From the NCBI RefSeq assembly GCF_007971225.1, contig NZ_CP042435.1, positions 2,607,501 to 2,671,500 of the forward strand: a stretch of 64,000 nt of DNA, given 5' to 3'. The notes beneath the pieces are model-generated. The model saw only the letters and a program-made list of their open reading frames with translations. It was not told the origin of the DNA and made no database searches. Every line of letters starts with the position of its first letter. The stretch's first letter is position 1. Below are positions 1,373 to 63,608 of the stretch, piece after piece. A program made the translations under genes and the position numbers. This DNA is from Panacibacter ginsenosidivorans. GTDB taxonomy: Bacteria; Bacteroidota; Bacteroidia; Chitinophagales; Chitinophagaceae.

Positions 1373-1392
1373 GTTGCGTCGCACTCTTGTAC
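1373..1392 (+). repeat. Intergenic repeat, A arm
   Basis: Exact copy of the A arm GTTGCGTCGCACTCTTGTAC, preceded by the family's CCGGGCTCAAA-like flank at about 1345. It lies just after the aminotransferase gene. Confidence 0.9.
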
Positions 1393-1586
1393 AACATAAT
1401 TTTATAGCAGCATTTAAAAACAAATATTAGCAAATAAAAATGCTTCATAAGGTTTTGTAGATGGCTGCAAGTGAAAAAATAAATTATTGTTTAAAAGATC
1501 AGCACCGTAAAATTGCGTTCTTTTTCGAACTATATTTTGTATTACGTGTTTATTTTTATCTAATTGCCTAACCTAAATTAAAACAC

Positions 1587-2408
1587 ATGAAAACCTATCC
1601 TCTTTTACTGATTATATCTGCAAGTTTATTTTTTGTACAGTGCAGAAGCGGCCTTGTAACCATGACGAATAGTTGTTACAATGCTATTCAACAGGGAGAG
1701 CAGGCAAATAAGTCCGGTAATTACAGTAATGCTCTTGATCAATTTAACCAGGTACTGGATCAATGTAAAGCCTATGATGCAAAAGAAAAAGCTTATGCGG
1801 GCAAAGCCGCTGCACTTAACGGTTTGCAACGATATAATGAAGCTTTGGATGCCGCAATACAAGGTCTTGTTATTAACAAAACAAGCGTAGATAATCTTTT
1901 CGAAAAAGCAACCGCAGAGCTTGGACTTAAAAAGACAACAGATGCAAAAGCAAGTTTCAGCACCATCATTGATCTTACACAAAAAAACCAGAATGTAAAA
2001 GACCGTGCAACTATTTATGCAAAGATGGCGGAGATTGATCTTAAACAAAACATGCAGGCTGATGCCCTAAATAATATTCAACAGGCCATTGCGCTTGATG
2101 CTGATAATAATGATTTTTATATGCAGCGCGGAGATATAAAAACAGCGCAGGGAGACTTTACGGCTGCAATTGCAGATTATGACCTTGCTATAGCAAGAGG
2201 TAAAAATGATACAGAAGCATGGAAAGCAAAATCTGTTACCTATGTAAAATCTTATCAGCAGAAATACAATACTACAGATGCCAAACAACTGGCATCCAAA
2301 ATATCTTCATCAGATAAACAGATCCTGTGTGGTGAAATTGCCAAAGCAAAAGCAAAAGGCGTAAAAGATATAAATATTGACCTGCTTGAACTTTCCCTTT
2401 GTAAATAA
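1587..2408 (+). CDS. TPR-repeat lipoprotein
   Basis: A 273-residue protein with a lipoprotein signal peptide (hydrophobic residues 5-18, then Cys19 in FFVQC), followed by tetratricopeptide repeats over about residues 35-205. The TPR pattern is visible in segments such as YNEALDAAIQGL and FTAAIADYDLAI. It is expected to be a lipid-anchored periplasmic or outer-membrane scaffold. The OmpA-like lipoprotein starts 17 bp downstream on the same strand, so the two probably form an envelope operon. No catalytic motif is present and the binding partner is unknown. Confidence 0.8.
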   Translation: MKTYPLLLIISASLFFVQCRSGLVTMTNSCYNAIQQGEQANKSGNYSNALDQFNQVLDQCKAYDAKEKAYAGKAAALNGLQRYNEALDAAIQGLVINKTSVDNLFEKATAELGLKKTTDAKASFSTIIDLTQKNQNVKDRATIYAKMAEIDLKQNMQADALNNIQQAIALDADNNDFYMQRGDIKTAQGDFTAAIADYDLAIARGKNDTEAWKAKSVTYVKSYQQKYNTTDAKQLASKISSSDKQILCGEIAKAKAKGVKDINIDLLELSLCK

Positions 2409-2425
2409 TTATTAAAAAAGCACTT

Positions 2426-3082
2426 ATGAAAAAGATATATTTTTTTGTGGCAGCACTTGCTATCATCGTTGGTTCATGCAAAAGTTTAAACAACACACAA
2501 AAGGGAACAGGAATTGGCGCTGCAGCAGGCGCCGTAGCAGGTGGCTTGATCTTTAAGAATACTGCAGCAGGTGCAATTATCGGCGCTGCAGTTGGTGGCG
2601 GTGCAGGTTATGCCATCGGCCGCCATATGGATAAACAGGCAAAGGCTATTAAAGCCGCTATCCCTGATGCAGAAGTTACCCGGGTTGGAGAAGGCATTGA
2701 AATGACCTTTAATTCAGCATTACTTTTTCAGATCAATTCCGCAGAACTTAGTACGGTTGCCAAAACAGACCTTGATAAACTGGCCGGTGTATTTGTGCAA
2801 TATCCTGAAACGAATATTTTAGTAGAAGGTCATACCGATGATACAGGTTCTGATGATTACAATATGAAACTTTCAGAAAAGAGAGCTAATGCTGTTACAG
2901 GTTATCTCGAAAATAAAGGTCTTGCAGCCACCAGGTTTACTGTAAAATGGTATGGAGAAACGCAACCAAAATATCCAAACGACAGTGACAGCAACAGAGT
3001 AAAGAACCGGCGTGTTGAGCTGGCTATTTATGCTAACGATAAAATGAAGAAAGATGCAGAAGATGGGCAGTTAGGTCAATAA
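2426..3082 (+). CDS. OmpA-family peptidoglycan-binding lipoprotein with glycine zipper
   Basis: A 218-residue lipoprotein. The signal peptide ends at Cys18 (IVGSC), then a Gly/Ala-rich glycine-zipper segment (about residues 28-66) that probably inserts in or packs against the outer membrane, then an OmpA C-terminal domain from about residue 95 to 210. Family marks include EGHTDDTGS, the LSEKRA helix and NRRVEL, which carries the arginine that contacts diaminopimelate. The architecture resembles YiaD. It should tether the outer membrane to peptidoglycan and probably shares a transcript with the TPR lipoprotein upstream. Confidence 0.88.
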   Translation: MKKIYFFVAALAIIVGSCKSLNNTQKGTGIGAAAGAVAGGLIFKNTAAGAIIGAAVGGGAGYAIGRHMDKQAKAIKAAIPDAEVTRVGEGIEMTFNSALLFQINSAELSTVAKTDLDKLAGVFVQYPETNILVEGHTDDTGSDDYNMKLSEKRANAVTGYLENKGLAATRFTVKWYGETQPKYPNDSDSNRVKNRRVELAIYANDKMKKDAEDGQLGQ

Positions 3083-3166
3083 CATTTACTTTTTTGAATA
3101 AAGTATCGGTCGTATAAAGGCTGATGCTTTTTATTTTAGTCAGCCCCGGTGCATAGGGCATCACTC

Positions 3167-3250
3167 GTTGTGTCACTCACTTGTACGTTCTGAACTTTTA
3201 TGAGCAATGCTTGTTGCTCTTCTTGATTCAGTACAAGAGTGCGACGCAAC
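3167..3250 (+). repeat. Intergenic repeat, paired B and A arms (inverted)
   Basis: B arm GTTGTGTCACTCACTTGTAC at 3167-3186 and a reversed A arm at 3231-3250, separated by 44 bases. The arms can pair as an imperfect hairpin. A GCCGGG block follows at 3274-3279. The pair lies between the convergent OmpA and ridA genes. Confidence 0.9.
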
Positions 3251-3309
3251 GAAAGCATCTCATTTTTTTGAAAGCCGGGTTAATAAAATTCTTTTGTCTT
3301 TGGTCTTCT

Positions 3310-3696
3310 CTAAATACTTACCACAGCAATCATACTGATCTCTACATTCACATTTTTTGGAAGTGTTTTTACGGCAACCGTTTCACGTGCAGGGTAATCG
3401 CCATTAAAATAAGAACCATATACCTCATTTACTACAGCAAAAAAACTCATATCACTAAGAAAAATTGTTGTCTTTACAACATGTTCAAAAGTTAATTTGG
3501 CTTCGGAAAGAATTGCTTCAAGATTATTCATTACCTGCTGCGTTTCCTGCAAAATATCGCCGGTTATGAGCTCATTGGTGGCGGGGTTTACAGGTATTTG
3601 CCCGCTTATGAATAAAAGATTACCGGCTTTAACTGACTGATTATAAGGTCCGATAGGAGAAGGTGCTTTGTCTGTGTTGATGATCTGCTTAGGCAT
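3310..3696 (-). CDS. ridA: RidA-family reactive enamine/imine deaminase
   Basis: A 128-residue cytosolic Rid protein (YjgF/YER057c/UK114). RidA hydrolyses 2-aminoacrylate and related enamine/imines released by PLP enzymes. The start at 3696 (MPKQIINTDKAPSPIGPYNQ) matches the family N-terminus; a longer reading frame to 3774 has no family similarity and would overlap the divergent gene. The catalytic arginine is kept in YPARETVAVKTLP. The position matching the second conserved glutamate near the C-terminus is serine (VEISMIAV). It is divergently arranged with the gene at 3769. Confidence 0.9.
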   Translation of the reverse strand: MPKQIINTDKAPSPIGPYNQSVKAGNLLFISGQIPVNPATNELITGDILQETQQVMNNLEAILSEAKLTFEHVVKTTIFLSDMSFFAVVNEVYGSYFNGDYPARETVAVKTLPKNVNVEISMIAVVSI

Positions 3697-3768
3697 ACTG
3701 TAAATTTCGGGCAAGTTGCTGTATTTACCTGAACTATGCAACCTATTTTTGCAGCTTATTTTTGTTAC

Positions 3769-4395
3769 ATGCAAATTGTAGTAAGGGCATCAAAAGAACA
3801 AAAAGAAGAATGGCAAAACAAAAATGCGGTTAAAAATACTGCGGTAAGATTTATTGGTGCAGATGAAGATCTTTTTTCAGGTGAAAGTGATGATGTTTAT
3901 TTTGATCTGTTGTTTGCGAAAGACAAATCTTTAGCAGCCAACATTGACAAACCTGTTTTCGTACATGCAGTAGCTGAGTTACTGAGTGAATTGCCTTACA
4001 ATTATATTCGGATAAATGCCTGGAATGGTTTTTTAAAAAGAGAGGTAGTGGAGATAGTGGCATCAGAAAAAAATAAAGCGGTTGCAGTTCAGGTTATGGA
4101 ACAATTGGGTTGGAAATACATTTTTACAGCTGATATACGTGGCATGATTGGTGCCCGAACGATCAGTATGATCATTAACGAAGCCTACTATGTATTAGGT
4201 GATAATGTTAGTACCAAACAAGAAATTGATACTGCCATGAAACTGGGCACTAATTATCCTTATGGACCTTTCGAATGGAGTGAAAAGATAGGTTTGTATA
4301 ATATTTACAGTTTACTAAAATCACTTTTTGTTGAGGATGATCGCTATATTGTAGCTCCTTATCTTGAACAAGAGGTAATGTTCAATTCATTTTAA
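3769..4395 (+). CDS. 3-hydroxyacyl-CoA dehydrogenase C-terminal-domain protein
   Basis: A 208-residue protein whose second half matches the helical C-terminal dimerisation/substrate domain of 3-hydroxyacyl-CoA dehydrogenases (MIGARTISMIINEAYYVLG, then DTAMKLGTNYPYGPFEW). The first ~100 residues lack the Gly-rich NAD motif of the full enzyme, so this is a stand-alone or reduced member, not a normal beta-oxidation dehydrogenase. Start chosen at 3769 (MQIVVRASK); two TAnnTTTG boxes (3744-3751 and 3757-3764) lie just before it, which argues against the upstream ATG at 3736. tsaB follows on the same strand. Confidence 0.75.
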   Translation: MQIVVRASKEQKEEWQNKNAVKNTAVRFIGADEDLFSGESDDVYFDLLFAKDKSLAANIDKPVFVHAVAELLSELPYNYIRINAWNGFLKREVVEIVASEKNKAVAVQVMEQLGWKYIFTADIRGMIGARTISMIINEAYYVLGDNVSTKQEIDTAMKLGTNYPYGPFEWSEKIGLYNIYSLLKSLFVEDDRYIVAPYLEQEVMFNSF

Positions 4396-4451
4396 CTGCA
4401 CCCTGTAATAAAACAATTAATAAAAATCACTTATTCTGAAAATATAAAGTC

Positions 4452-5162
4452 TTGGCTTTATTACTAAATATAGACACCGCTACAACTTATGCAGGAGTTT
4501 GCATAAGTAACAACATGGAGATACTGGCCACAGAAGAAAGCAGAGATCAAAAAAATCATGGTTCTTTTGTGCAACCGGCCATACAAAAATTATTGAAGCA
4601 GGTTAACATTTCTCCAGGTGCTATTAATGCAATTGTTCTCTCAGCGGGACCGGGTAGTTATACCGGTTTGCGTGTGGGATTGGCTACTGCAAAAGGACTC
4701 TGCTATGCATTACAAAAACCTTTGATCATGATAAATACGCTGGAAGTAATGGCTTATGCTTCCATATTTGCATACAGCAATTTTCAGGTGGGATCTAGAG
4801 ACTTACTTTTTTGTCCAATGATCGACGCAAGACGCATGGAAGTCTTTACGGCCTTATATAATGCTCAGCTAAAATGTTTATCAAAACCGGCTGCATTAGT
4901 ACTTACAGAAATGTCGGCCGGCTTTTTGCCCGATAATAAACAAATTGTGTTTTCGGGATCAGGTAGCCGGAAATTCAAAAATATTAACCTCCGCGAAAAT
5001 GCCGTTTTTATTGAAAATGAGCATTCTGTGCATCATCTGGCTGTGTTGGGTGCTAAAGCGTTTAATAAAAATGAGTTTACAGAGCTCGCCTATAGTGAGC
5101 CCTTTTACATAAAAGAATTTTTCAACCCTCAACATGGTATAAAAATTAAAAATTTATTATAA
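4452..5162 (+). CDS. tsaB: tRNA threonylcarbamoyladenosine biosynthesis protein TsaB
   Basis: A 236-residue member of the TsaB/YeaZ family. TsaB is the non-catalytic ASKHA-fold partner of TsaD and TsaE in making t6A37 on ANN-decoding tRNAs. Visible marks are the N-terminal LLNIDTATTYAGV phosphate-loop-like segment and the family signature SAGPGSYTGLRVGLATAKGL. The start is TTG at 4452, chosen because MALLLNIDTAT aligns with the family N-terminus and no ATG is available. It lies 56 bp after the dehydrogenase-domain gene. Confidence 0.92.
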   Translation: MALLLNIDTATTYAGVCISNNMEILATEESRDQKNHGSFVQPAIQKLLKQVNISPGAINAIVLSAGPGSYTGLRVGLATAKGLCYALQKPLIMINTLEVMAYASIFAYSNFQVGSRDLLFCPMIDARRMEVFTALYNAQLKCLSKPAALVLTEMSAGFLPDNKQIVFSGSGSRKFKNINLRENAVFIENEHSVHHLAVLGAKAFNKNEFTELAYSEPFYIKEFFNPQHGIKIKNLL

Positions 5163-5210
5163 TTTTACATATACCAGTTTATTATTTTTTAATCTCTGAA
5201 TAAAACCGTA

Positions 5211-5552
5211 ATGACGAACCACCAGCAGATAGCAATTATTAATGACCCGGATACCAACGAAAGCCTACGGTTGGATTTTTTACACATGAAAAAATCAATG
5301 CTGATTTTACGTGCATTGAATCATAAACTAAGACAACAGATTTTAAAATTGCTCGATGAAAAAAGAAAAGTGACTGTTACAGAGATCTATATCGAATTGA
5401 GACTTGAACAATCAGTTACATCTCAGCACCTGGCTATACTGCGCAGGGCAGGTTTGGTAAGCGCAATACGCGAAGGAAAATTCATCTATTACACCATCAA
5501 TTACAAACGTGTAAAAGAAGTAAATGCCTTTGTAGAGCAACTTGTAGGTTAA
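5211..5552 (+). CDS. ArsR-family winged-helix transcriptional regulator
   Basis: A 113-residue winged-helix protein of the ArsR/SmtB type. The HTH is at about residues 55-85 (VTEIYIELRLEQSVTSQHLAILRRAGLV split over recognition and supporting helices) and the wing carries REGKFIYYTIN. The metal-binding ELCVC motif of arsenic/zinc sensors is absent, so it probably senses something other than metal or acts by oligomerisation. It is followed by a strong stem-loop terminator. Targets are not evident from the sequence. Confidence 0.85.
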   Translation: MTNHQQIAIINDPDTNESLRLDFLHMKKSMLILRALNHKLRQQILKLLDEKRKVTVTEIYIELRLEQSVTSQHLAILRRAGLVSAIREGKFIYYTINYKRVKEVNAFVEQLVG

Positions 5553-5575
5553 ACAACCAGGTTTATTTTATTTAA

Positions 5576-5625: not shown

Positions 5626-5690
5626 AAGAACATCAATAATCACAAGTAAGAATTTCATGGGTCCTGGCAGTAGAACTTCTGGAAGCACCT

Positions 5691-5710
5691 GTTGCGTCGC
5701 ACTCTTGTGC
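5691..5710 (+). repeat. Intergenic repeat, A arm
   Basis: A arm with ending TTGTGC instead of TTGTAC. It lies between the convergent arsR-type and glpF genes, with the family flank CCTGGCAGTAG upstream at about 5664. Confidence 0.9.
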
Positions 5711-8504: not shown

Positions 8505-8524
8505 GTACAAGTGAGTGACACAAC
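8505..8524 (-). repeat. Intergenic repeat, B arm (reverse) inside the glycerol operon
   Basis: Exact reversed B arm GTACAAGTGAGTGACACAAC between glpK and the rid gene. No good A partner is seen; a weak remnant (GTTGTTCCATCTTGCAC) lies at about 8484-8500. Confidence 0.9.
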
Positions 8525-11852: not shown

Positions 11853-11926
11853 GTTGCGTCGCACACTTGTACACTAAAACATTTTAAGCTGAATAAAAAA
11901 CAGGACGTACAAGTGAGTGACACAAC
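11853..11926 (+). repeat. Intergenic repeat, paired A and B arms (inverted)
   Basis: A arm at 11853-11872 and reversed B arm at 11907-11926, with 34 bases between them. The flanks CCCGGCTGCAATACTTATGG (11825 on) and CTTAATAGCATTACAACAGC (from 11932) extend the imperfect palindrome to roughly 130 bp. It lies between the divergent transpeptidase and amidohydrolase genes. Confidence 0.92.
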
Positions 11927-13623: not shown

Positions 13624-13643
13624 GTTGCGTCGCACGCTTCAAC
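13624..13643 (+). repeat. Intergenic repeat, A arm (degenerate end)
   Basis: Reads GTTGCGTCGCACGCTTCAAC and continues GTTC as in other copies. It lies between the two amidohydrolase genes. Confidence 0.85.
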
Positions 13644-15066: not shown

Positions 15067-15086
15067 GTTGTGTCACTCACTTATAC
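15067..15086 (+). repeat. Intergenic repeat, B arm
   Basis: B arm with one change (TTATAC for TTGTAC), followed by GTTC. Its A partner lies at 15233-15252, an unusually long 146-base spacer. Confidence 0.88.
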
Positions 15087-15232: not shown

Positions 15233-15252
15233 GTACAAGAGTGCGACGCAAC
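15233..15252 (-). repeat. Intergenic repeat, A arm (reverse)
   Basis: Exact reversed A arm (GTACAAGAGTGCGACGCAAC), directly before the riboswitch. Confidence 0.92.
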
Positions 15253-15261
15253 GATGCTTAA

Positions 15262-15478
15262 TTGAAACGTTGCATCCGGGTACAAAAAATTATCGACGGA
15301 TTAAAAGGGAAGTCCGGTGTAATTCCGGCGCTATCCCCGTAGCTGTAAGCTTTTTATACTGTTGAATCTTCATACCACTGTTTTATACGGGAAGGTGTTC
15401 AACGGGAAGCGAGCCAGAAGACCTGCCATCTCCAGTATTATCACGAGCTTTCGGGTGAAAAGCCGGAGATGAGAGAGT
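15262..15478 (+). promoter_or_regulatory. Cobalamin (B12) riboswitch
   Basis: The conserved core is clear: AAAAGGGAAGTCCGGTGTAA from 15303, CCCCGTAGCTGTAA at about 15335-15348, and the B12-box AGCCAGAAGACCTGCC at 15412-15427. A CATCTCC / GGAGATG stem (about 15427-15472) follows and could be the switching stem that hides the leader. It precedes btuB by about 80 bp. In this class adenosylcobalamin binding turns off expression of B12 uptake genes. The exact 5' boundary is approximate. Confidence 0.93.
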
Positions 15479-15556: not shown

Positions 15557-17431
15557 ATGAGCATGAAAAAAATTCTATTCGCATTTGCTGTTTTTGCTAC
15601 GGCGCAAAACACGTACGCACAAAAAGATTCGGTACAAAACATTTTGGATGAGGTAGTGGTTACTGCCACAAAGAGTCCGAAAAAATTAAGTGAGACAGGA
15701 AAAGTTCTTACTGTTATTACAAAAGAGCAAATTGAAAAAAGTGGTGGTAAAGATTTTGCACAACTGATCACAGAACAAACGGGCATTATAGTTAATGGTG
15801 CCATTAGCAACCCAGGTAAAGACAAATCGATATTTCTTCGCGGCGCTACTGATAAATACACGTTGATATTATTGGATGGTATTCCATTGAATGAACCAGC
15901 AGGTGTTGGTGGCAGTTTTGATCTGCGTTTATTATCGCTTGATAATATTGAACGCATTGAAATCTTAAAAGGCAGTCAGAGTACATTGTATGGTTCAAAT
16001 GCAGTAGCAGGTGTTATCAATATTATTTCGAAAAAGCCAACGACAGGCAAGCCACAATTCAATGGCTTAGCTACTTACGGAAGTTTCAACACTTTTAAAG
16101 GTAACGCGAACATCAGCCAGAAAACAAAAGTGCTGGAGTACGATCTGAATTATGTTTATTACAATACAGATGGCATTTCAGAAGCGAAAGACACAACAGG
16201 CAAAGCAAATTTTGATAAAGATGGTTTTACGCAACATGCAGTGCAGGCTGTTGTCGGCGTGAACATAACAGATAAATTCAAAGTATCACCATATTATCGC
16301 TTTACACAATTTGAAGGTGGTTATGATGCAGATGCGTTTACTGATGGAGATAATCATTATAATGCATCATTGGTAAATACCGGGCTCGATGGAAGATATA
16401 ATTATGCAAAAGGAACTGTGCATTTTAATTACGGATATGATTTCACCAAAAGATTATATGCAAGCCAGTATGGTGATTTCTCTATGAAAGGAAAATTTCA
16501 CCAGGCAGAAGCATTCGTGAATCATGCTTTTAGCAAAGCTGTGCAAATGGTTGCCGGTGCAAACATGCAGGTATATCGCATAGATGCGCCGGATACAGTC
16601 AACAGCATTATTAGTCCGTATGCTTCTTTGTTTCTGCACAGCAATAATGGATGGAATGTAGAGTTAGGCGGACGTTACAACCACCACAACAAGTACGGGG
16701 ATAATTTTACGTACAGCTTTAATCCTTCTTATTTAATAAATGAAAAAGTGAAACTGTTTGCAAACATTACCAGTGGATTTCGTGCACCATCTATCAATGA
16801 ATTGTTTGGACCTTATGGCTCCAATCCTGATTTGAAACCTGAGAGGTCAACAACGCAGGAAGCAGGCGTGCAGGCATCTTTAGCCAATAAGAAATTAACA
16901 GCAACACTTACCGGTTTCAACAGAATAATAAAAGATGTAATTATTTATAACAGCAATTACACTTATGAGAACCGCGATAAGCAACATGATTTTGGTGTGG
17001 AAATAGAATTGAATTATTCACCAATTGAGCAACTGAATATTAAAGCTTCTTACGCCTACATTGATGGAAAGATAACCCAGGCACTTGCTGGCAAAGACAC
17101 TTCTTTTTATAATCTTGTACGCAGACCAAAGAATACTGTGAATCTTTTTGTTGGTTATCAAATCACCAAACAATTATTCGTCAGTGCATCTACGCAATTC
17201 ATTGGTAAGCGCACCGATAATTATTTTGATCCAAACACATTTACATCTTCAGAGGTTGAATTGAAATCTTATGCATTGCTAAATGCATACGCAGAATATA
17301 AATTCTTAAAGAGCAGGATCGATCTTTTTGTTGATGCAAAGAATATTGGTAACAAAAGAAATTTTTATGAAGTGTATGGTTACAATGTGCAGGGCATTAC
17401 TGTAACTGCAGGTATACGTTTCAGATTATAA
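15557..17431 (+). CDS. btuB: TonB-dependent vitamin B12 receptor BtuB
   Basis: A 624-residue outer-membrane TonB-dependent receptor. It has a signal peptide (second Met at residue 3 gives MKKILFAFAVFATAQNTYAQ), a TonB-box-like DEVVVTATK, a plug domain (DKYTLILLDGIPLNEP, STLYGSNAVAGVINI) and a 22-strand-type barrel ending in an aromatic-rich GIRFRL. The length is close to BtuB of Enterobacteria. The cobalamin riboswitch upstream makes the substrate assignment strong: it imports B12 or other corrinoids. It leads the operon btuB-DUF6580-CWC-DUF71. Confidence 0.92.
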   Translation: MSMKKILFAFAVFATAQNTYAQKDSVQNILDEVVVTATKSPKKLSETGKVLTVITKEQIEKSGGKDFAQLITEQTGIIVNGAISNPGKDKSIFLRGATDKYTLILLDGIPLNEPAGVGGSFDLRLLSLDNIERIEILKGSQSTLYGSNAVAGVINIISKKPTTGKPQFNGLATYGSFNTFKGNANISQKTKVLEYDLNYVYYNTDGISEAKDTTGKANFDKDGFTQHAVQAVVGVNITDKFKVSPYYRFTQFEGGYDADAFTDGDNHYNASLVNTGLDGRYNYAKGTVHFNYGYDFTKRLYASQYGDFSMKGKFHQAEAFVNHAFSKAVQMVAGANMQVYRIDAPDTVNSIISPYASLFLHSNNGWNVELGGRYNHHNKYGDNFTYSFNPSYLINEKVKLFANITSGFRAPSINELFGPYGSNPDLKPERSTTQEAGVQASLANKKLTATLTGFNRIIKDVIIYNSNYTYENRDKQHDFGVEIELNYSPIEQLNIKASYAYIDGKITQALAGKDTSFYNLVRRPKNTVNLFVGYQITKQLFVSASTQFIGKRTDNYFDPNTFTSSEVELKSYALLNAYAEYKFLKSRIDLFVDAKNIGNKRNFYEVYGYNVQGITVTAGIRFRL

Positions 17432-18072: not shown

Positions 18073-18092
18073 GTTGCGTCGCACACTTGTAC
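18073..18092 (+). repeat. Intergenic repeat, A arm, inside the B12 cluster
   Basis: A arm GTTGCGTCGCACACTTGTAC with family flank GGCTTTAGCAATACTAAT upstream. It lies between the DUF6580 and CWC genes. Confidence 0.9.
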
Positions 18093-19724: not shown

Positions 19725-19835
19725 GTTGTGTCACTCACTTGTACGTTCGGAAATCTTTTCTGCAGTCATGAATTGTAAAAGGAGCAATGATAATCCTGAT
19801 GATTTACGATTCTCTGCACAAGTGTGCGACGCAAC
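19725..19835 (+). repeat. Intergenic repeat, paired B and A arms (inverted)
   Basis: B arm at 19725-19744 (followed by GTTC) and a reversed A arm GCACAAGTGTGCGACGCAAC at 19816-19835, with 71 bases between. It lies between the convergent marC and beta-barrel genes. Confidence 0.9.
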
Positions 19836-21776: not shown

Positions 21777-21796
21777 GTACAAGAGTGCGACGCAAC
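21777..21796 (-). repeat. Intergenic repeat, A arm (reverse) between atpD and atpC
   Basis: Exact reversed A arm (GTACAAGAGTGCGACGCAAC) followed by AAGCCGGGCTCAGAATACT-like family flank at about 21818. It splits an otherwise standard atpD-atpC pair. Confidence 0.92.
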
Positions 21797-23391: not shown

Positions 23392-23704
23392 TTATTTTTA
23401 GCAGGTTTTCAAATTATTTCAAACAAAATGTATGAAAAACGGGCTATTCAAATAGCATTAAATCCAATTTCGGCCGCAAAGGTAAGGGAATAGCGGTTTC
23501 AAAGTTTTTATGAAGCAAAGTTTCGTCAGGGATTTTTTGAGCCCGGCTTTTATTTAGACATTATGCTTTCGTTGCGTCGCACTCGTGTGCGTTTTGTATA
23601 AAATTCAGCAATAGCGTACTCTTTGAATTTTATATTTTACCGATTAAAAACTATCATCAATCATATTTTTTCTGAGGTAAATTTGTCTTTCAAATAATTA
23701 ACTT
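23392..23704. other. 313-bp intergenic region between divergent atpD and aldo/keto reductase genes
   Basis: It holds one A-arm repeat (23571-23590) with a GAGCCCGGC flank, and a perfect TAnnTTTG box (TAAATTTG, 23678-23685) 20 bp before the reductase start. Nothing else is recognised. Confidence 0.7.
23571..23590 (+). repeat. Intergenic repeat, A arm
   Basis: A arm with two changes at the end (TCGTGTGC). Upstream GAGCCCGGCTTTTATTTAG is the family flank. Confidence 0.88.
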
Positions 23705-24709
23705 ATGAAGCACAGAAAACTAGGAAACACAGGTGTAGAATTATCTGCTATTGGCCTTGGCTGCATGGGTATGAGCTTTGCTTATGGCCCACGCAACGAT
23801 GAAGATTCTATTGCTACACTAAACCGGGCACTTGAACTGGGTATTAATTTTTGGGATACAGCTGACATGTATGGCATGGGACACAATGAAGAACTCATTT
23901 CAAAAGTGCTGGTACCTAACAGGGACAAAGTATTTATCGCCACTAAATTTGGCTTCCGTTTACGGGAAGGAGCCACGGGGTTTGTTGGCACGCCGGCTTC
24001 TTATTTTGATGGATCGCCTGCCTATCTTAAAGAGGCAGTTGAAAAAAGTTTACAACGTTTAAAGATCGACACTATTGATCTCTATTATGCACATCGCATA
24101 GATCCGAACGTTCCGGTGGAAGATATGGTTGGTGCTATGGCCGACCTGGTAAAAGAAGGCAAAGTAAAATACCTGGGACTATCTGAAGCATCTCCAAAAT
24201 CAATTCGCAAGGCACATGCTGTACATCCGATCACTGCATTACAAAGTGAATATTCGTTATTAACGAGAGATATTGAAGGCGGGATACTTGATACCTGCAG
24301 AGAACTCGGCATTACTTTAGTTCCTTACAGCCCGCTTGCGAGAGGACTTGTAACAGCTACCGTAACGAATATGGATGAACTGGCAACGGATGATTTCAGG
24401 AGAACCCTTCCACGTTTTAAAGATGATTCATGGGACAATAATCAAAAGCTGGTAGATGAATTTGCTGCTATTGCAAAAAGTAAAAATACTACGGCTGCAC
24501 AATTAGCATTGGCATGGGTGCTTGCTCAGGGTGATGATATGATTCCGATTCCAGGCACCAAGAAAAGAAAATACCTGGAAGAAAACGCGGCTGCGGTTGA
24601 CATTGAACTAAGCAATGCTGATCTTCTGCAAATTGAATATCTGTTAGATAAATATCCTAATGTTGGCCAACGCTATAGCGATGGCGCATTGAAACTGGTG
24701 AATCATTAA
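23705..24709 (+). CDS. Aldo/keto reductase
   Basis: A 334-residue NADPH-dependent aldo/keto reductase with a TIM barrel. The catalytic tetrad is present: D51, Y56, K81 and H130 ([21 protein letters not shown]). The N-terminal [20 protein letters not shown] is typical of the YajO/AKR13-like group. It probably reduces small aldehydes or ketones; the substrate is unknown. It is monocistronic with its own -7 box (TAAATTTG) 20 bp upstream and a perfect hairpin downstream. Confidence 0.92.
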
Positions 24710-24795: not shown

Positions 24796-24815
24796 GTACA
24801 AGAGTGCGACGCAAG
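24796..24815 (-). repeat. Intergenic repeat, A arm (reverse)
   Basis: GTACAAGAGTGCGACGCAAG, one base off the consensus, followed by the GCCGGGCTCAAAA flank at about 24839. Confidence 0.9.
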
Positions 24816-27990: not shown

Positions 27991-28061
27991 GTTGCGTCGC
28001 ACTCTTGTACACTTTGTTCATTGCCGGGCATATATAAGAACGTACAAGTGAGTTACACAAC
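27991..28061 (+). repeat. Intergenic repeat, paired A and B arms (inverted)
   Basis: A arm at 27991-28010 and reversed B arm (one mismatch, GTACAAGTGAGTTACACAAC) at 28042-28061, 31 bases apart. It lies between convergent scpA and the GT-like gene. Confidence 0.92.
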
Positions 28062-30372: not shown

Positions 30373-30392
30373 GTACAAGTGAGTGACACAAC
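30373..30392 (-). repeat. Intergenic repeat, B arm (reverse)
   Basis: Exact reversed B arm (GTACAAGTGAGTGACACAAC) followed by AAAAGCTTAATA, as in other B-type copies. It lies between the convergent glycosyltransferase and psd genes. Confidence 0.92.
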
Positions 30393-32812: not shown

Positions 32813-32832
32813 GTTGCGTCGCACTCTTGTGC
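32813..32832 (+). repeat. Intergenic repeat, A arm
   Basis: A arm ending TTGTGC; upstream ACAAGCATTGGAATAAAATG resembles the family flank. Confidence 0.88.
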
Positions 32833-33169: not shown

Positions 33170-33189
33170 GTACAAGTGAGTGACACAAC
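33170..33189 (-). repeat. Intergenic repeat, B arm (reverse)
   Basis: Exact reversed B arm (GTACAAGTGAGTGACACAAC), between the orphan terminator and the alcohol dehydrogenase stop. Confidence 0.92.
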
Positions 33190-36653: not shown

Positions 36654-36673
36654 CTTGCGTCGCACTCTTGTAC
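36654..36673 (+). repeat. Intergenic repeat, A arm
   Basis: CTTGCGTCGCACTCTTGTAC, first base changed. Family flank AGAGCCCATC lies at 36621. It separates dnaN and the Lrp gene. Confidence 0.9.
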
Positions 36674-39318: not shown

Positions 39319-39389
39319 GTTGCGTCGCACGCTTGTACGCTTTGTTCATTGCTGAGCATTGATCAAAACCCTGAAGAGTGCGACGCAAC
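39319..39389 (+). repeat. Intergenic repeat, paired A arms (inverted)
   Basis: A arm GTTGCGTCGCACGCTTGTAC at 39319-39338 and a reversed A arm at 39371-39389 (GAAGAGTGCGACGCAAC, 5' part decayed), 32 bases apart. Here both arms are of the A type. Family flank CCTGGCTGCATTACTACTAT at about 39291. Confidence 0.88.
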
Positions 39390-42584: not shown

Positions 42585-42604
42585 GTATAAGTGTGCGACG
42601 CAAC
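42585..42604 (-). repeat. Intergenic repeat, A arm (reverse)
   Basis: GTATAAGTGTGCGACGCAAC, two changes from consensus, followed by AAAAGCCGGGTACAAAA as the family flank. Confidence 0.88.
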
Positions 42605-42703: not shown

Positions 42704-42723
42704 GTTGCGTCGCACACTTCTGC
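42704..42723 (+). repeat. Intergenic repeat, A arm
   Basis: GTTGCGTCGCACACTTCTGC, with the flank GCGGGCTATAGTGCTGGTAT upstream. Confidence 0.88.
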
Positions 42724-46395: not shown

Positions 46396-46415
46396 GTTGC
46401 GTCGCACGCTTGTAC
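46396..46415 (+). repeat. Intergenic repeat, A arm
   Basis: GTTGCGTCGCACGCTTGTAC, followed by TTTC. Confidence 0.9.
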
Positions 46416-46725: not shown

Positions 46726-46745
46726 GTTGCGTCGCACACTTGTAC
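46726..46745 (+). repeat. Intergenic repeat, A arm
   Basis: GTTGCGTCGCACACTTGTAC with CCCGGCAGTAGTATTACTAT upstream, just before the R-M island. The reversed A arm at 50186-50205 lies beyond its other end. Confidence 0.92.
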
Positions 46746-50185: not shown

Positions 50186-50205
50186 GTACAAGAGTGCGAC
50201 GCAAC
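50186..50205 (-). repeat. Intergenic repeat, A arm (reverse)
   Basis: Exact reversed A arm (GTACAAGAGTGCGACGCAAC) beyond the vsr end of the R-M island. Confidence 0.92.
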
Positions 50206-51827: not shown

Positions 51828-51847
51828 GTACAGGAGTGCGACGCAAT
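51828..51847 (-). repeat. Intergenic repeat, A arm (reverse)
   Basis: GTACAGGAGTGCGACGCAAT, two changes from consensus, between the convergent PLC-like and amine oxidase genes. Confidence 0.85.
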
Positions 51848-56321: not shown

Positions 56322-56341
56322 GTTGCGTCGCACACTTGTAC
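56322..56341 (+). repeat. Intergenic repeat, A arm
   Basis: GTTGCGTCGCACACTTGTAC with flank GGCCCGGCTTTAGTGCTGCT upstream, one of the best preserved left flanks. Confidence 0.93.
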
Positions 56342-57148: not shown

Positions 57149-57168
57149 GTACAAGAGTGCGACGCAAC
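57149..57168 (-). repeat. Intergenic repeat, A arm (reverse)
   Basis: Exact reversed A arm (GTACAAGAGTGCGACGCAAC). Confidence 0.92.
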
Positions 57169-58376: not shown

Positions 58377-58395
58377 GTTGCGTCGCAAGCACTTC
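58377..58395 (+). repeat. Intergenic repeat, A arm (decayed)
   Basis: GTTGCGTCGCAAGCACTTC; the left 11 bases are perfect, the rest diverge. Flank CCAGCAGTAGTTTCTTATAG lies upstream. Confidence 0.7.
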
Positions 58396-58521
58396 ATCTG
58401 CATTACATAACTCATCTGCCTTTACCAATTGAAATGCATCAGCAAAAAGAAAGTGCGTCCATAATTACATGAAGAAACAACTATTTTGACTAACTTTAAA
58501 CTCCTCAAAAAATCACTAACC

Positions 58522-58980: not shown

Positions 58981-58983
58981 CTT

Positions 58984-61122
58984 ATGTCAGCTACACATTC
59001 AAGCAGAAGAAACTTTTTGAAACTATCCACACTTACTACCGGCGGTTTTATACTTGGGTTTAATGCCTTTGGTGCTACACAAAAAACACCCGCTATTATC
59101 GGTGGAACATCTTCCGGTGAAATGGCAAGTTTCAACAGCTATCTTGCTATTGCAGCAGATGGCACTGTAACCATCTATTCTCCCAACCCGGAATTAGGTC
59201 AGAATATCAAGACATCTTTCCCCATGATCGTGGCAGAAGAACTTGATGCCGACTGGACGAAAGTAAAAGTTGTGCAGGCAGCATTGGACACAAATAAATT
59301 TGACCGGCAACTCACTGGCGGCAGCGGTGCAGTTCCTCATAGCTGGATGCGTTTAAGAAATGCCGGTGCTACGGCAAAAGCAATGCTGGTTACTGTTGCA
59401 GCCAAACGATGGAACGTTGATCCTTCCACGCTCGCAGCTGCAAATGGCTTTGTTATAAACAGTGCAACCGGAAATAAACTCAGTTATGGTGAGCTGGCAT
59501 CAGAAGCCTCTCAAGTACCTGTGCCAAAAGATGTAAAACTAAAAGACAGGAAAGATTTCAAGATCATAGGAACGGCTGTAAGAAATGTAGAGAATAAAAA
59601 TATTCTTACAGGAAAACCATTGTTTGGATTGGATTATTACAGGGAAGGGATGCTGCATGCCATGATACAAAGACCTCCTGCATTTGGCACAAAAATAAAA
59701 TCGGTAGATACCACAGCGGCTAAAGGAATGCCTGGCATTGTTGACATTGTAACATTTAAAAATAATGTGGCAGTGGTGGGTAAATCAACCTGGGAAATAA
59801 TGAAGGCAAGAAAAGCTGTGAAGATAGAATATGAGAAAGATGGCAATATAGAGAGTACTGCTGATCACGATAAGATCTTTGCAGATCTTCTTGATAATGG
59901 TAAAGCCGAAGTTCGAAGGAAAGACGGCGATGCTGATGCTGCTTTAAAGAATGCTGCTAAAATAGTGAAATCAGAATTTCAATGCCCGTTTCTTGCACAT
60001 AGTCCTATGGAGCCCATGAATTTTTTTGCACATGTAAAAAGTGATGGTACGGTAGAACTGGCAGGGCCAAGTCAAACACCGGCAAGAGCAAGAGAAGCAG
60101 TATCCAAACTTTTAAATATACCAGAAGATAAAATAACATTGGAGCTTACAAGATTGGGCGGCGGATTTGGCCGCAGGTTAAAGTTTGATTATGTAACAGA
60201 AGCAGCAGAATTATCAAGTCTTATAAAAGCACCGGTAAAAGTAATGTGGACCAAAGAAGATGATATGCAGGGCGGTAGTTACAGGCCCGCTGTGCGTTAC
60301 CGTTTTGAAGCTGGTCTGGATAGCGAAGGCAATCTGATTGCTTATAAGCTCAGGGGAGTTGGCATCAATGCAGGTAACTGTACAAGAGAAGATAATTTTC
60401 CGTCAGGTGCAGTTGATAATTTACTGATCGATTCGGTTGAATATGTATCCCCCATTACTACCGGCGCATGGCGTGCACCAATCACCAATTTCCTGGCTTT
60501 TGCGGAGCAATCTTTTATTGATGAAGTGGCCATGGCAGCAGGAAAAGATGCAGTGCAGTTCAGGCTTGACCTGTTAGCAAAAGCAAAACAAAAACCAGTA
60601 GGCGCCATTAAATATAATATAGACAGGATGGAAACGGTAATAAAAAAAGCGGCACAGCAATCTGGCTGGGGTACTAAGAAAGATATTGCACAGGGATTCA
60701 GTGTTTACTTCTCTCACGCCTCTTATGTAGCACAGGTTTGTGAAGCTGCTATGCAAAACGGCAAGCCTGTTGTAAAGAAAATATATGCTGTAGCGGATTG
60801 TGGTCAGGTCATTAATTCATCAGGTTCAGAACAACAGGTGATGGGTGCTATTACAGATGGCTATGGCCATGCCATGTTTGGTAAACTCAGTTTTAAAGAT
60901 GGTGCAACCGAACAAAAAAATTATAACAACTACCGTCTTATACGGATGAAAGAAATACCGGAGATAGAAACCTATTTTATTGATAATGGCATTGACCCTA
61001 CCGGTTTGGGAGAACCTGCATTGCCACCAACAGGTGGCGCTGTTGCCAACGCTATCTTTAAGGTTACCGGTAAGCGTTTGAGAAAACAACCTTTCATAGA
61101 AGAAGAAATATTTAAGGCATAG
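58984..61122 (+). CDS. Molybdopterin-binding subunit, IorB-like (isoquinoline 1-oxidoreductase beta/aldehyde dehydrogenase group)
   Basis: A 712-residue Mo-hydroxylase large subunit with a Tat leader (SRRNFLKLSTLTTGGF), so it is exported with cofactor. The two catalytic regions include GGGFGRRLKFDYVTEAA and the Glu of the active site in GLGEPALPPTGG (E677). Electrons pass to the [2Fe-2S] subunit, 3 bp upstream. The substrate is unknown: IorB-like enzymes act on isoquinoline, aldehydes or nicotinate. Confidence 0.92.
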   Translation: MSATHSSRRNFLKLSTLTTGGFILGFNAFGATQKTPAIIGGTSSGEMASFNSYLAIAADGTVTIYSPNPELGQNIKTSFPMIVAEELDADWTKVKVVQAALDTNKFDRQLTGGSGAVPHSWMRLRNAGATAKAMLVTVAAKRWNVDPSTLAAANGFVINSATGNKLSYGELASEASQVPVPKDVKLKDRKDFKIIGTAVRNVENKNILTGKPLFGLDYYREGMLHAMIQRPPAFGTKIKSVDTTAAKGMPGIVDIVTFKNNVAVVGKSTWEIMKARKAVKIEYEKDGNIESTADHDKIFADLLDNGKAEVRRKDGDADAALKNAAKIVKSEFQCPFLAHSPMEPMNFFAHVKSDGTVELAGPSQTPARAREAVSKLLNIPEDKITLELTRLGGGFGRRLKFDYVTEAAELSSLIKAPVKVMWTKEDDMQGGSYRPAVRYRFEAGLDSEGNLIAYKLRGVGINAGNCTREDNFPSGAVDNLLIDSVEYVSPITTGAWRAPITNFLAFAEQSFIDEVAMAAGKDAVQFRLDLLAKAKQKPVGAIKYNIDRMETVIKKAAQQSGWGTKKDIAQGFSVYFSHASYVAQVCEAAMQNGKPVVKKIYAVADCGQVINSSGSEQQVMGAITDGYGHAMFGKLSFKDGATEQKNYNNYRLIRMKEIPEIETYFIDNGIDPTGLGEPALPPTGGAVANAIFKVTGKRLRKQPFIEEEIFKA

Positions 61123-61164
61123 ATAATTTTTGGAGCCGGGCGGTAGTGCTGCTATGATGCTTTT

Positions 61165-61184
61165 GTTGCGTCGCACTCCTGTAC
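61165..61184 (+). repeat. Intergenic repeat, A arm
   Basis: GTTGCGTCGCACTCCTGTAC followed by GTTC and ATTGCTATGAGCA; full flank GAGCCGGGCGGTAGTGCTGC upstream. It gives the most complete single-arm element of the family. Confidence 0.94.
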
Positions 61185-61247
61185 GTTCAAAATTGCTATG
61201 AGCATAAAAAGTGTGAGTCTATGAAATTACGTCACTAACTTTCGAAG

Positions 61248-62381
61248 TCATTCGGCCAAAGTACCAAGTTTTTGATACAATGCCCTGAAGCAATCCCATG
61301 GTGTATTTTCACCTGCTTTATCATCTTTTTTTATGCCATAAAAACCATCAAGAAAAGAGCCAGCATCACTCCATACAGTTTGCATCATTCCCTTGAAATG
61401 TTCACTCATTTCAGGAGAAGATTGCTTTCTGAAATTTACCATATCTGCTGTTTGTGTAACAGCAAGTGCAGGCATACGCCACGGGCATGTTACAATATCA
61501 AGGCCCTTCATTGCAAAATAAACAGGTGTTTTATCGGCACGTTCATAATGCCAGTCGCAGATCATGATATCTTTTGGTATCATGTCAATAGCTCTGTAAG
61601 TATTATTATAACTGGCTTCCCACATGCCCAGACCAGTGGTTTTACCATCGATGAGCCTGTCGCCCCATATCCATAGTTGCCTGTTTTTTTGTGCAAGATG
61701 ATCGCGTATAGTTCTTACCTCTTCAGCAAATAATTCGGCCTTGTCTCTGCCACCACAACGTGGGCATCCATCTTCTCCCAGGTAAAAAACCTCATCCATA
61801 CCTGCATGAAATGCATCTGTTTCAAATGCATCGCAGATCTCATCAACAATATCAAACACAACTTTGTGTACACCGGGGTGCAGCGGACAGTAGCTTTTGC
61901 AGTAAAGGTTATCTGCATTAGGCCATTCATATTTTACGGGCATTTTTACATATGGTGTTTCATCGAAATCAGGATATACTTCCAGCAACTTTTCATTTTT
62001 ATTTGCCCAGGATTGGTGCCCGAGTAAGTTAACCTGGGGAATAAGCCTTATTTTATTCTTTTTGCAGGCATTTACCAGTTGTTTTACATCATTCTTAGAA
62101 AGCGGGTTATTGTCACGTAATTCAGGGTGACTTTCATATGCATAATTGTAATCAACACGAAGAATAAGCGTATTTACTTTTCGGGGTGCCAGTTCTTCAT
62201 TGATAAATTTTACAAACCTGTCAACCTCTTTTGCAGCAGGAGCTGCAATGCAGAAGCCACGTACAGGTATAATACTGTCTAAAGCTGACTTTGAACCTGT
62301 AAGAGCCTGTGCAGTAATGCTGTTATGAACAAAGAAGCTGAAAATAAAAATGATCAACAGGCTGTAATATTTGTTTTTCAT
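61248..62381 (-). CDS. Secreted glycoside hydrolase, GH20-like TIM barrel
   Basis: A 377-residue exported protein (signal peptide IIFIFSFFVHNSITAQ). The catalytic TIM barrel shows VDYNYAYESHPE, LIPQVNLLGHQSW, FHAGMDEVFY (H192, D196, E197, the GH20-type Asp-Glu pair), IWGDRLIDG and MQTVWSDAGSF. The sequence is short for a GH20 hexosaminidase (no separate N-terminal domain), so it may belong to a distant family. Probably acts on amino-sugar glycans. Confidence 0.8.
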   Translation of the reverse strand: MKNKYYSLLIIFIFSFFVHNSITAQALTGSKSALDSIIPVRGFCIAAPAAKEVDRFVKFINEELAPRKVNTLILRVDYNYAYESHPELRDNNPLSKNDVKQLVNACKKNKIRLIPQVNLLGHQSWANKNEKLLEVYPDFDETPYVKMPVKYEWPNADNLYCKSYCPLHPGVHKVVFDIVDEICDAFETDAFHAGMDEVFYLGEDGCPRCGGRDKAELFAEEVRTIRDHLAQKNRQLWIWGDRLIDGKTTGLGMWEASYNNTYRAIDMIPKDIMICDWHYERADKTPVYFAMKGLDIVTCPWRMPALAVTQTADMVNFRKQSSPEMSEHFKGMMQTVWSDAGSFLDGFYGIKKDDKAGENTPWDCFRALYQKLGTLAE

Positions 62382-62489
62382 TTTGAAAATTGTTGTTGGA
62401 GATGAAATATAAAAATAAGCATTGCAGCTTTTTAAAATCTAAAGAAGCCGATTTGGTAAAACTGCTTACTGCTGTTTACTGATATAAAT

Positions 62490-62509
62490 GCACAAGAGTG
62501 CGACGCAAT
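62490..62509 (-). repeat. Intergenic repeat, A arm (reverse)
   Basis: GCACAAGAGTGCGACGCAAT, two changes from consensus, between the divergent GH and rpmH genes. Confidence 0.87.
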
Positions 62510-62676
62510 AGCAGCCTAATCTGGGTTTCAAAAGCCGGAAGCATAAAAAACTTTCTTATCAAAGGCTTCTGTATCAATTTTTGCCTTACTTTTGCCGTCC
62601 TTTCACAGGGAGGCAGTGATGGTGACTGTTTCCTGGTAGTTGAAATAACAATTTTTGGGTTAGTAAAACATTATTT

Positions 62677-62832
62677 ATGAAACGTACATTTCAACCGCAT
62701 ACACGCCGCCGCAAATCAGTACATGGATTTAGGGAGCGCATGCAGACTGCCAATGGCCGCAAAGTGCTGGCTAGCCGTCGTGCGAAAGGCCGCAAAAAAT
62801 TAACTGTTTCTGACGAAAGAGCATTAAAGTAA
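62677..62832 (+). CDS. rpmH: 50S ribosomal protein L34
   Basis: A 51-residue basic protein, [22 protein letters not shown] then [17 protein letters not shown], identical in pattern to L34 with a short extra C-terminal tail (TVSDERALK). Start ATG 62677. A perfect TAnnTTTG box (TACTTTTG at 62587-62594) lies about 82 bp upstream. It begins the rpmH-rnpA-yidD cluster. Confidence 0.97.
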
Positions 62833-62871
62833 CAGCACCCCCTCTAAAAGGTGTGAAGACCGATATTATTT

Positions 62872-62902
62872 AAAGCCTCATCTTTGTGATGGGGCTTTTT
62901 TC
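62872..62902 (+). terminator. Terminator-like hairpin between rpmH and rnpA
   Basis: AAAGCCTCATC pairs with GATGGGGCTTT (one mismatch), small loop, T run, just 8-10 bp before the rnpA start. It may reduce rnpA expression relative to rpmH. Confidence 0.8.
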
Positions 62903-62910
62903 TGTTGTAT

Positions 62911-63318
62911 ATGGCAAAACAATTTTCATACGGAAAGGAAGAAAAACTGAAAAGCAGGAAGCTTACGGAGCAGCTTTTTAGTAAAGGAAAAACGTTTACT
63001 GTGTTTCCGCTAAAGGTCTTTTATATGCCTGTTAAGGAAGAATTAGATTTCCCTGTTAAGGCAGGTGTAGGCACCGGCAGCCGTAACTTTAAAAAAGCTG
63101 CAGACAGAAACCGGGTGAAACGTTTGTTACGGGAAGCTTACCGAACTGAAAAAAATGCTTTAACTGATTATGCCAGGGCTAATCAAAAACATGTGGCTAT
63201 TTTCTTTTTGTACATTGATAAAGTTTTGCCGGAATACACGCTCATAAAATCAAAAATGCCGCTGGCTATTGGTAAACTGATAAAACAATTGCATGAAGTG
63301 GCTGTTGCAAATACTTAG
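62911..63318 (+). CDS. rnpA: Ribonuclease P protein component
   Basis: A 135-residue basic protein that binds RNase P RNA to mature tRNA 5' ends. The signature [13 protein letters not shown] is at about residues 69-81, and [16 protein letters not shown] is the N-terminal strand region. The start at 62911 ([15 protein letters not shown]) is preferred to TTG/ATG two codons earlier (62905). It overlaps yidD by 26 nucleotides, as in many bacteria. Confidence 0.94.
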
Positions 63319-63523
63319 TTACCCTTTTATACTGCTGATAAAGCTTTACCAGTATACCATCTCACCCATACTTGGGCCTAAATGCAGGTTTACGCCTACC
63401 TGTTCTCAATATAGTTTGGAAGCATTTAGAAAATATGGCGTATTCAAAGGCTTTTGGCTAACAGTAAAAAGGATCAGCCGCTGCCACCCGTGGGGTGGGC
63501 ACGGGCATGATCCTGTTCCATAA
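63293..63523 (+). CDS. yidD: Membrane protein insertion efficiency factor YidD
   Basis: A 76-residue protein of the YidD/UPF0161 family: [20 protein letters not shown], then [19 protein letters not shown] and the C-terminal [14 protein letters not shown]. It is thought to assist YidC-dependent membrane insertion. It overlaps the end of rnpA. yidC is not next in line; a DoxX gene lies beyond. Confidence 0.95.
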
Positions 63524-63588
63524 AAAAGCTATTACCAAAGTAACAGCTTAAATTTTGTTCCCATCTGAATTAACTACTGGCATCGTTC

Positions 63589-63608
63589 CTTGCGTCGCAC
63601 TCTTGTGC
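63589..63608 (+). repeat. Intergenic repeat, A arm
   Basis: CTTGCGTCGCACTCTTGTGC with the TACTCAGCA downstream end, between the convergent yidD and DoxX genes. Confidence 0.9.

Follow-up and report, generated by a model that had tools for sequence, protein, structure and literature searches.

An intergenic 20-base arm family of Panacibacter ginsenosidivorans and other Chitinophagaceae, retained in place and ordered in convergent and antiparallel pairs

What keeps a 20-base sequence in thousands of near-identical copies in the spaces between the genes of one bacterium? The question is raised by a 64,000 nt window of Panacibacter ginsenosidivorans (NZ_CP042435.1, positions 2,607,501-2,671,500; the window is this whole stretch, and window coordinates count from its first base), a bacterium whose genome is a single contig of 5,528,026 bases. 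Two related repeat arms, A (GTTGCGTCGCACTCTTGTAC) and B (GTTGTGTCACTCACTTGTAC), recur along the window, and we tentatively read them as DNA sites that the host maintains and that may work in pairs. A sequence-only reading of the window had counted 36 of them (28 A and 8 B) and had placed the difference between the two types at four positions. Both statements hold. The A motif matches 26 times at ≤3 mismatches, with an additional arm at 39370 that has 4, and the 11-base A core TTGCGTCGCAC has 27 exact matches; the B motif matches 12 times at ≤3 mismatches, four of these being A arms, which leaves 8 B arms. Neither motif was found in 100 shuffles. With one copy at 58377 that carries a 2-base insertion, presumably the 28th A arm of that reading, the total of 27 A, 8 B and 1 indel copy is again 36, and the types differ at positions 5, 9, 11 and 13 of the arm. 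The core of the arm is an odd palindrome, of 9 bases in A (TGCG-T-CGCA) and 7 in B (GTG-T-CAC).

Counted genome-wide, the two arms together reach thousands of copies and are not confined to the window. There are 1,631 A arms at ≤3 mismatches, or 1,475 at ≤2, and 796 B arms at ≤2, with no match for the reversed controls of either motif, giving approximately 2,270 arms at ≤2 mismatches. This sum should involve little double counting: in an 864 kb sample made up of the window and 40 stretches of 20 kb spread across the host genome, where arms were taken at ≤4 mismatches, no arm matched A and B alike at ≤2. The sample holds 425 arms, one per 2.0 kb. Positions 2-12 and 14-16 are one base in ≥96% of 440 A arms from two genomes, and positions 2-16 in ≥98% of 281 B arms, among arms preselected at ≤4 mismatches. 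Most sampled stretches mix A and B arms; stretches L025, L035 and the second half of L030 hold almost B arms only, and arm type seems to be regional in places. The sole armless stretch among the 41 (L037, G000:C1:4555001-4575000) also has the highest G+C, 0.42, and is perhaps an acquired island.

The restriction of the arms to non-coding DNA, as claimed from the window, extends to the sample. With genes called by a simple hexamer-based caller written for this analysis, none of 35 window arms and 2/425 sampled arms lie in called genes, each of the two having 4 mismatches; the reversed motifs match once. Elsewhere the corresponding counts are 1/296 in a sister species of the same genus (genome G058), 0/66 in stretches of a genome of another genus (G024) and 2/272 in 119 stretches of other genomes. 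The two outcomes that the sequence-only reading had named as refuting it, equal frequency within genes and confinement to this region, were both looked for and neither was found. Intergenic regions longer than 100 bases are occupied in 62/73 convergent, 176/262 tandem and 56/93 divergent cases. The window gave a hint that transcription sets the orientation of the arms, but in tandem regions of the 864 kb 127 arms run with the upstream gene vs 118 against it, and this candidate was rejected; 9 of the 425 arms, lying at stretch ends, were omitted from the neighbour-gene counts.

The arms have a direction, and single arms tend to point against their neighbours. Once convergent pairs closer than 300 bases were collapsed and the remaining single arms compared, ANTIPARALLEL neighbours at 0.3-3 kb were antiparallel vs parallel in a ratio of 113:31 in the host and 86:5 in G058; where exactly one gene stands between them, the ratios are 79:15 and 50:1. 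Shuffles that preserve the strands of the flanking genes gave, below 3 kb, 75.0±6.2 such neighbours in the host (maximum 100 of 2,000 shuffles) vs 119 observed, and 47.3±4.9 in G058 (maximum 61) vs 89 observed. When all arms are included, orientation alternates 293 times in the host vs 206±10 after shuffling and 228 times in G058 vs 148±8. The preference fades with distance, to 25:16 at 2-3 kb and 12:9 at 3-5 kb in the host, and to 40:16 at 3-5 kb and 12:9 at 5-8 kb in G058. It recurs in G024, which has almost A arms only (19:2 below 5 kb, 3:6 at 5-8 kb), and in the 119 stretches of other genomes (46:11 below 3 kb), which number several to a genome and may overlap the G024 or G070 stretches, with no pair counted in duplicate. 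Where the genes between two neighbours up to 4 kb apart lie on both strands, antiparallel neighbours still prevail (25:2 in G058, 18:8 in the host), and the order is therefore not a transcript-level effect. The two strands are also near balance within stretches, with a sum of squared differences between + and - arms of 121 vs 425 expected.

Several simple origins of this order were considered and set aside. Deletion of tandem pairs should deplete close neighbours, but neighbouring single pairs below 2 kb are not halved relative to random placement (109 vs 93 expected in the host, 53 vs 57 in G058, 6 vs 8 in G024), so that orientation looks set rather than left over from the loss of tandem pairs; totals at 3-5 kb do depart from the simple placement model (21 vs 30 expected in the host, 56 vs 43 in G058). 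Local inverted copying was rejected as the flanks of antiparallel neighbours are no more alike than random, and such neighbours are thus not local copies; host tandem neighbours are slightly more alike downstream, as are the insides of host close pairs. Inversion by recombination was rejected as the cause of order on one clear case at a block end and one unclear three-gene block among 128 collinear genes. Strict two-by-two phasing of single arms was not seen, successive antiparallel steps being statistically independent.

At close range the rule is sharper. The 91 host pairs below 300 bases in the 864 kb comprise 84 convergent, 7 divergent and no tandem pairs, and A is joined with B in 68 of the 84; in G058 all but 3 divergent pairs and 1 tandem pair are convergent (44). 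Distances within pairs cluster around 24, 31 and approximately 85-105 bases, and 244 of the 425 arms stand more than 300 bases from the next arm. Eight chosen pairs of the 84 were folded as single-stranded DNA with arms and interior: 4/8 reached z < -4, 3/8 fell in the range -1.6 to -1.9 and the remaining one gave no fold. The arms' own complementarity contributes to these scores, and the coordinates used stop one base short of the pair's end. Between the arms of close A/B pairs (L012:7289-7420, L014:3010-3151 and others) the sequence is often an imperfect palindrome; these palindromes fall into several, apparently unrelated families.

Comparison with G058 indicates that arms are retained at their sites. 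A 20 kb piece of the window located the syntenic region, 900 kb of G058 holding 296 arms were taken, and 160 reciprocal best hits join it to the 864 kb host sample. Intervals were compared if they had conserved neighbour genes in the same relative strands, with ≤3 extra genes in the host and ≤5 in G058, and others were dropped; where several genes have come or gone, some of the paired intervals may not be orthologous. Arms in at least one of the two genomes mark 53 intervals: 31 are occupied in both, 16 in the host only and 6 in G058 only. Orientation agrees in 11/11 orthologous intervals with a single arm on each side, and type agrees in 36/41 matched arms. Orthologous arms of the same type are 92% identical, whereas their surroundings are scarcely more alike than those of non-orthologous same-type copies: 66% vs 63% in the 36 bases ahead of the arm, 60% vs 54% at -60 to -37 and 57.5% vs 56.4% in the 40 bases behind it, all as gapped global identities, for which random levels are high. 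An arm kept between flanks near saturation is the pattern that marks a functional site. Compared by eye, pairs at orthologous sites have interiors that seem to resemble each other in neither sequence nor length, and single arms differ around shared genes at L009 13663 and L016 811. The arm at L009 16790 is A here and B at its orthologous position G058:C1:1960440 despite the four differing positions, which suggests a switch of type by replacement and not by point mutation. Inversion is rare: 4/128 collinear genes were flagged, three in a small block of unclear direction and one clear (L011 18051-19868), which closes a collinear block and has arms beside it in both genomes.

The arm is itself the core of a longer, looser monomer of approximately 85 bases, as seen in aligned copies. 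A T run lies approximately 37 bases ahead of the arm, followed by a box near aCCcgGC (A) or a looser box (B), then by approximately 20 loose bases, GCTTT- or GGCATCGCC-like bases and the 20-base arm; the tail is loose, with GTTc.GAac and, near its end, cAGCA, and is sharpest behind B arms. The distance from box to arm shifts by single bases, chiefly among 28, 29 and 30. This monomer, together with the convergent pairs and antiparallel neighbours, is an addition to what had been found in the window. It does not behave as a structured RNA element, which was rejected given that Rfam at the gathering score has no window match at the arms, only a cobalamin riboswitch, and that 256 A and 145 B monomers show no flank-to-arm covariation. 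Nor does it look like a small peptide gene, as the most widely open frame is intact in at most 43% of 437 A copies and 56% of 281 B copies and spacing shifts by single bases; several frames are moderately more open than with shuffled flanks (in A, 0.43 vs 0.27 for minus-strand frame 2; in B, 0.48-0.56 of copies vs 0.35-0.41 for the plus-strand frames).

The family has a narrow but uneven distribution. With counts made by genus and family as well as by strand, intergenic position and orientation, A arms at ≤2 mismatches occur in 58/117 family genomes including the host, in 1 to 1,475 copies. Congeners differ strongly (G103 274 vs G003 0; G004 143 vs G104 0), and five species of one genus have 220, 184, 115, 21 and 19 A arms. 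In the class as a whole, 4/237 genomes match, all among the 5 family members drawn (host included), and 0/232 outside the family. In named genomes at least 119 stretches match; the 80 listed of these are titled Chitinophagaceae, Segetibacter, Foetidibacter, Limnovirga, Flavisolibacter, others, Chitinophagales or Bacteroidetes; we take these listed genera to be members of Chitinophagaceae. Viral contigs gave 5 stretches with A and 10 with B, and one monomer searched against plasmids had no match. In 20 stretches of low-copy genomes the arm surroundings are similar and the arms lie between genes, one arm lying inside a called gene. An autonomous element was sought there and rejected, as no transposase was recognized by eye among the genes flanking 11 of these sites, on which no family search was run. 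The sole A match (≤2 mismatches) in each of two genomes of one genus (G017, L088 10001; G115, L089 9111) stands approximately 100 bases ahead of a gene that is uvrA-like by eye. By titles and the openings of abstracts, the literature searched on Chitinophagaceae repeats, MITE (miniature inverted-repeat transposable element) and REP (repetitive extragenic palindromic) sequences in Bacteroidetes, alternating repeats, dif modules and uptake does not describe the arm family, and the 12-base core GTTGCGTCGCAC appears among the papers searched in one that, by its title, concerns a plant gene family.

In the window itself these patterns can be followed arm by arm (strand and number of mismatches in brackets). 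An A arm at 1373..1392 (+, 0) precedes a convergent pair of B at 3167..3186 (+, 0) and A at 3231..3250 (-, 0). The A arm at 5691..5710 (+, 1) has an A+ counterpart in the orthologous G058 intergenic region, while the G058 site of the B arm at 8505..8524 (-, 0) is without an arm. The convergent pair of A at 11853..11872 (+, 1) and B at 11907..11926 (-, 0) is missing from its G058 site, as is the A arm at 13624..13643 (+, 3), where the intergenic region measures 127 bases here vs 65. The B arm at 15067..15086 (+, 1) is also B+ in G058, and its convergent partner, A at 15233..15252 (-, 0), is there a degraded remnant by eye. A cobalamin riboswitch (RF00174, 89 bits, 15258-15444, + strand) lies between this pair and a TonB-dependent receptor gene at 15557-17431. 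At the G058 site of the A arm at 18073..18092 (+, 1) there is a gene and no arm. The convergent pair of B at 19725..19744 (+, 0) and A at 19816..19835 (-, 2) has 71 bases inside; in G058 its interior measures 778 bases and includes a gene. The A arm at 21777..21796 (-, 0) has no counterpart at its G058 site. Next come A arms at 23571..23590 (+, 2) and 24796..24815 (-, 1), enclosing a gene at 23705-24709, and a convergent pair of A at 27991..28010 (+, 0) and B at 28042..28061 (-, 1). B at 30373..30392 (-, 0), A at 32813..32832 (+, 1), B at 33170..33189 (-, 0) and A at 36654..36673 (+, 1) follow, and then a convergent pair of A arms at 39319..39338 (+, 1) and 39370..39389 (-, 4). The A arms at 42585..42604 (-, 2) and 42704..42723 (+, 3), 99 bases apart, form one of the rare close divergent pairs, and those at 46396..46415 (+, 1) and 46726..46745 (+, 1) are in tandem, an exception to the ordering. 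A arms at 50186..50205 (-, 0) and 51828..51847 (-, 2) follow, the latter A- in G058 as well. One gene is enclosed by A arms at 56322..56341 (+, 1) and 57149..57168 (-, 0), and another by those at 61165..61184 (+, 1) and 62490..62509 (-, 2). Between these two intervals lies the A-like arm with the insertion (58377..58398, +), and the last arm is A at 63589..63608 (+, 2).

How, then, might such a family be maintained? Our tentative answer is that the arm may be a DNA site which the host maintains and a putative protein reads, and which functions in convergent or antiparallel pairs over distances of at most a few kb. The host would keep the approximately 85-base site for a putative family-specific protein that reads it. 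Two facing arms less than 300 bases apart, usually one A and one B, would act as a pair, or a single arm would take as its partner the closest arm of opposite orientation, at most a few kb off and beyond one or a few genes. Many synapsing proteins tell inverted sites from direct repeats on supercoiled DNA. The likeliest action would be that the bound protein brings two arms together on supercoiled DNA, where inverted sites align otherwise than direct repeats, so that a small loop or domain might be held. A transposition-like process probably dispersed the copies at some earlier time.

A number of observations weigh against this proposal. The site is dispensable in the 59/117 family genomes without an A arm at ≤2 mismatches, and no reader protein was found in a search for reader or mover genes that was confined to PF01797. 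Single arms beside close pairs show no orientation preference (57:50 in the host, 32:34 in G058, 6:6 in G024), although this is expected if a close pair can partner an arm whichever way it points; such arms in the 119 stretches tend to be antiparallel (18:7). B-B neighbours stand at 11:11 in the host, vs 13:1 in G058, and at L030 8672-17198 six B+ arms lie in tandem, four with common extended tails, probably as recent local copies that break the antiparallel rule. No greater decay is seen in arms that lack an antiparallel partner, and the idea that unpartnered arms decay gains no support from this. Convergent gene-bearing intervals are shorter than divergent ones, with medians of 1,211 vs 1,773 bases in the host (p 8e-6) and 2,026 vs 3,120 in G058 (p 3e-5), and 7/16 genes in convergent intervals below 2.5 kb are unshared in synteny vs 18/145 in divergent ones (p 0.004), the figures being 17/114 in tandem and 6/12 in longer convergent intervals. 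The basic unit therefore looks convergent, like transposon ends; a purely symmetric pairing rule does not predict shorter convergent intervals and a transposon-like unit does.

This leads to the main rival, possible in our view but doubtful, in which a putative transposase acts in trans on non-autonomous units, MITE-like or mobile-cassette-like, whose terminal inverted repeats are the arms. Two convergent arms with 12 bases to several kb between them, at times including a gene, would make up the unit, and antiparallel order would follow from arrival as units. MITEs and mobile insertion cassettes have convergent inverted repeats around a short or gene-bearing interior and no transposase of their own; the convergent pairs fit this arrangement, but 244/425 sampled arms stand alone over 300 bases. 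The convergence of close pairs (84/91 in the host, 44 of 48 in G058), the length asymmetry and the excess of unshared genes just described all agree with such units, as do the widely varying copy numbers of congeners and the unit at L016 3543-4046, which carries a glyoxalase-like gene and is missing as a whole from an arm-free G058 site. However, orthologous arms this alike between saturated flanks are unlike decaying relics, and the single-arm differences around shared genes also weigh against such units. The 72 genes singly enclosed in intervals of 300-2500 bases include several that are housekeeping-like in their translations by eye (argininosuccinate synthase, uroporphyrinogen decarboxylase, ferrochelatase), and a cassette array with accessory cargo only was rejected for this reason, although unshared genes are enriched. 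MITEs are also marked by target-site duplications and clean empty sites; occupied and empty intervals were found, but G058 is too diverged to place their borders; whole-element similarity was not seen, as the 20-base arm alone is kept and flanks are approximately 63% alike between unrelated same-type copies (gapped). The arms further differ from MITEs in their unrelated-looking interiors, their constraint in place across species and the lack of any parent element among our findings: no transposase was seen by eye at the 11 low-copy sites and PF01797 is absent from the host, other transposase families not having been searched. The origin may have been MITE-like, via another transposase. This account and that of a paired host site would meet in a protein that synapses or bridges arms and that might be a domesticated transposase.

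It is improbable that the arms belong to a site-specific recombination system in which the stretch enclosed by two arms is exchanged in the manner of dif modules or integron cassettes, even though the 19725/19816 interior differs so greatly from its G058 counterpart, orthologous pair interiors look unrelated by eye, arm type differs at 5/41 matched sites and the inverted gene at L011 18051-19868 sits beside arms. The dif (pdif) modules of Acinetobacter plasmids have sites of alternating orientation and, like the arms, place sites of opposite orientation around genes. The arms differ from these modules in being chromosome-wide and rarely associated with inversion, and by eye they lack the two-arm Xer layout, that is, XerC and XerD half-sites around a central crossover region as dif is generally understood, no recombinase search having been made; the GTT/AAC order at pair ends is also reversed relative to the usual attC layout. 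Distinctly improbable is a signal for self-DNA uptake kept by uptake bias, as in Pasteurellaceae or Neisseriaceae, which the sequence-only reading had offered as a candidate. Uptake signal sequences and DNA uptake sequences share with the arms a very high abundance, family restriction (in the genomes searched) and a conserved motif, and uptake bias could account for constraint in place. Known uptake signals also occur within genes, however, whereas 2/425 arms do, and the arms have a longer near-invariant core in an ordered orientation; uptake would predict neither this antiparallel order nor the convergent A/B pairs and the loose monomer of approximately 85 bases, and titles and abstract openings gave no relevant uptake-sequence work on Bacteroidetes. 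That reading had also argued that some mechanism must multiply or hold the repeat, and of its suggestions a site for a chromosomal protein fits best, given an arm kept between saturated flanks, while mobilization by a REP-associated tyrosine transposase (RAYT; Y1, TnpA_REP) is unsupported and, as an explanation of the arms as REP elements or REPINs (paired REPs), highly improbable. REPs, REPINs and BIMEs (bacterial interspersed mosaic elements) are, like the arms, many short intergenic repeats with head-to-head dimers and copy numbers that vary between relatives, and two of six Y1 genes (L300, L302) do sit between convergent arms, at distances that are not fixed. Yet PF01797 has no match in the host or in the arm-rich G024, it occurs in 8/9 arm-rich and 9/11 arm-free relatives alike (n=20), and the six Y1 loci are not consistently framed by arms, two being without any. 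The monomer shows no flank-to-arm pairing signal, and the arms have neither the monomer stem-loop nor the tag of GTAG REPs and REPINs. In G116, a family genome with no A arms, 15 PF01797 matches, ten with identical scores, are probably an active IS200/IS605-like element. CGTC REPs, according to PMC3733652, have no dedicated transposase and are defined by a CGTC tag at one end followed by an 8-9 bp stem with a 4-5 base loop; in the arms, CGTC is internal to A (GTGTC in B) and no such stem follows on inspection. Repeats alternate in orientation inside BIMEs, according to PMC2817692, but the arms have a 20-base near-invariant core and keep antiparallel order across genes at kb scale, not only within a cluster.

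By analogy only, the paired host site that we tentatively prefer recalls the convergent CTCF sites of animals, where the orientation of neighbours matters and pairs are convergent; the arms differ in being bacterial, in their range of a few kb and in a reader protein that is putative. A broader version, which we consider rather unlikely, would be a chromosome-wide system of addressing by thousands of oriented 20-base sites, each facing or opposing its nearest neighbour, in which a putative family-specific reader protein follows a polarity code and convergent pairs fix loops of 0.02-5 kb, often with one gene inside. Repeats of high copy number in bacteria are commonly regarded as transposon litter. 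Here a near-invariant core, retention in place and a strand-independent order at kb scale point to a paired function at the level of DNA. If the units were transposon-like after all, they would form a convergent-unit family of unusual size, whose ends have outlived all else in the units.

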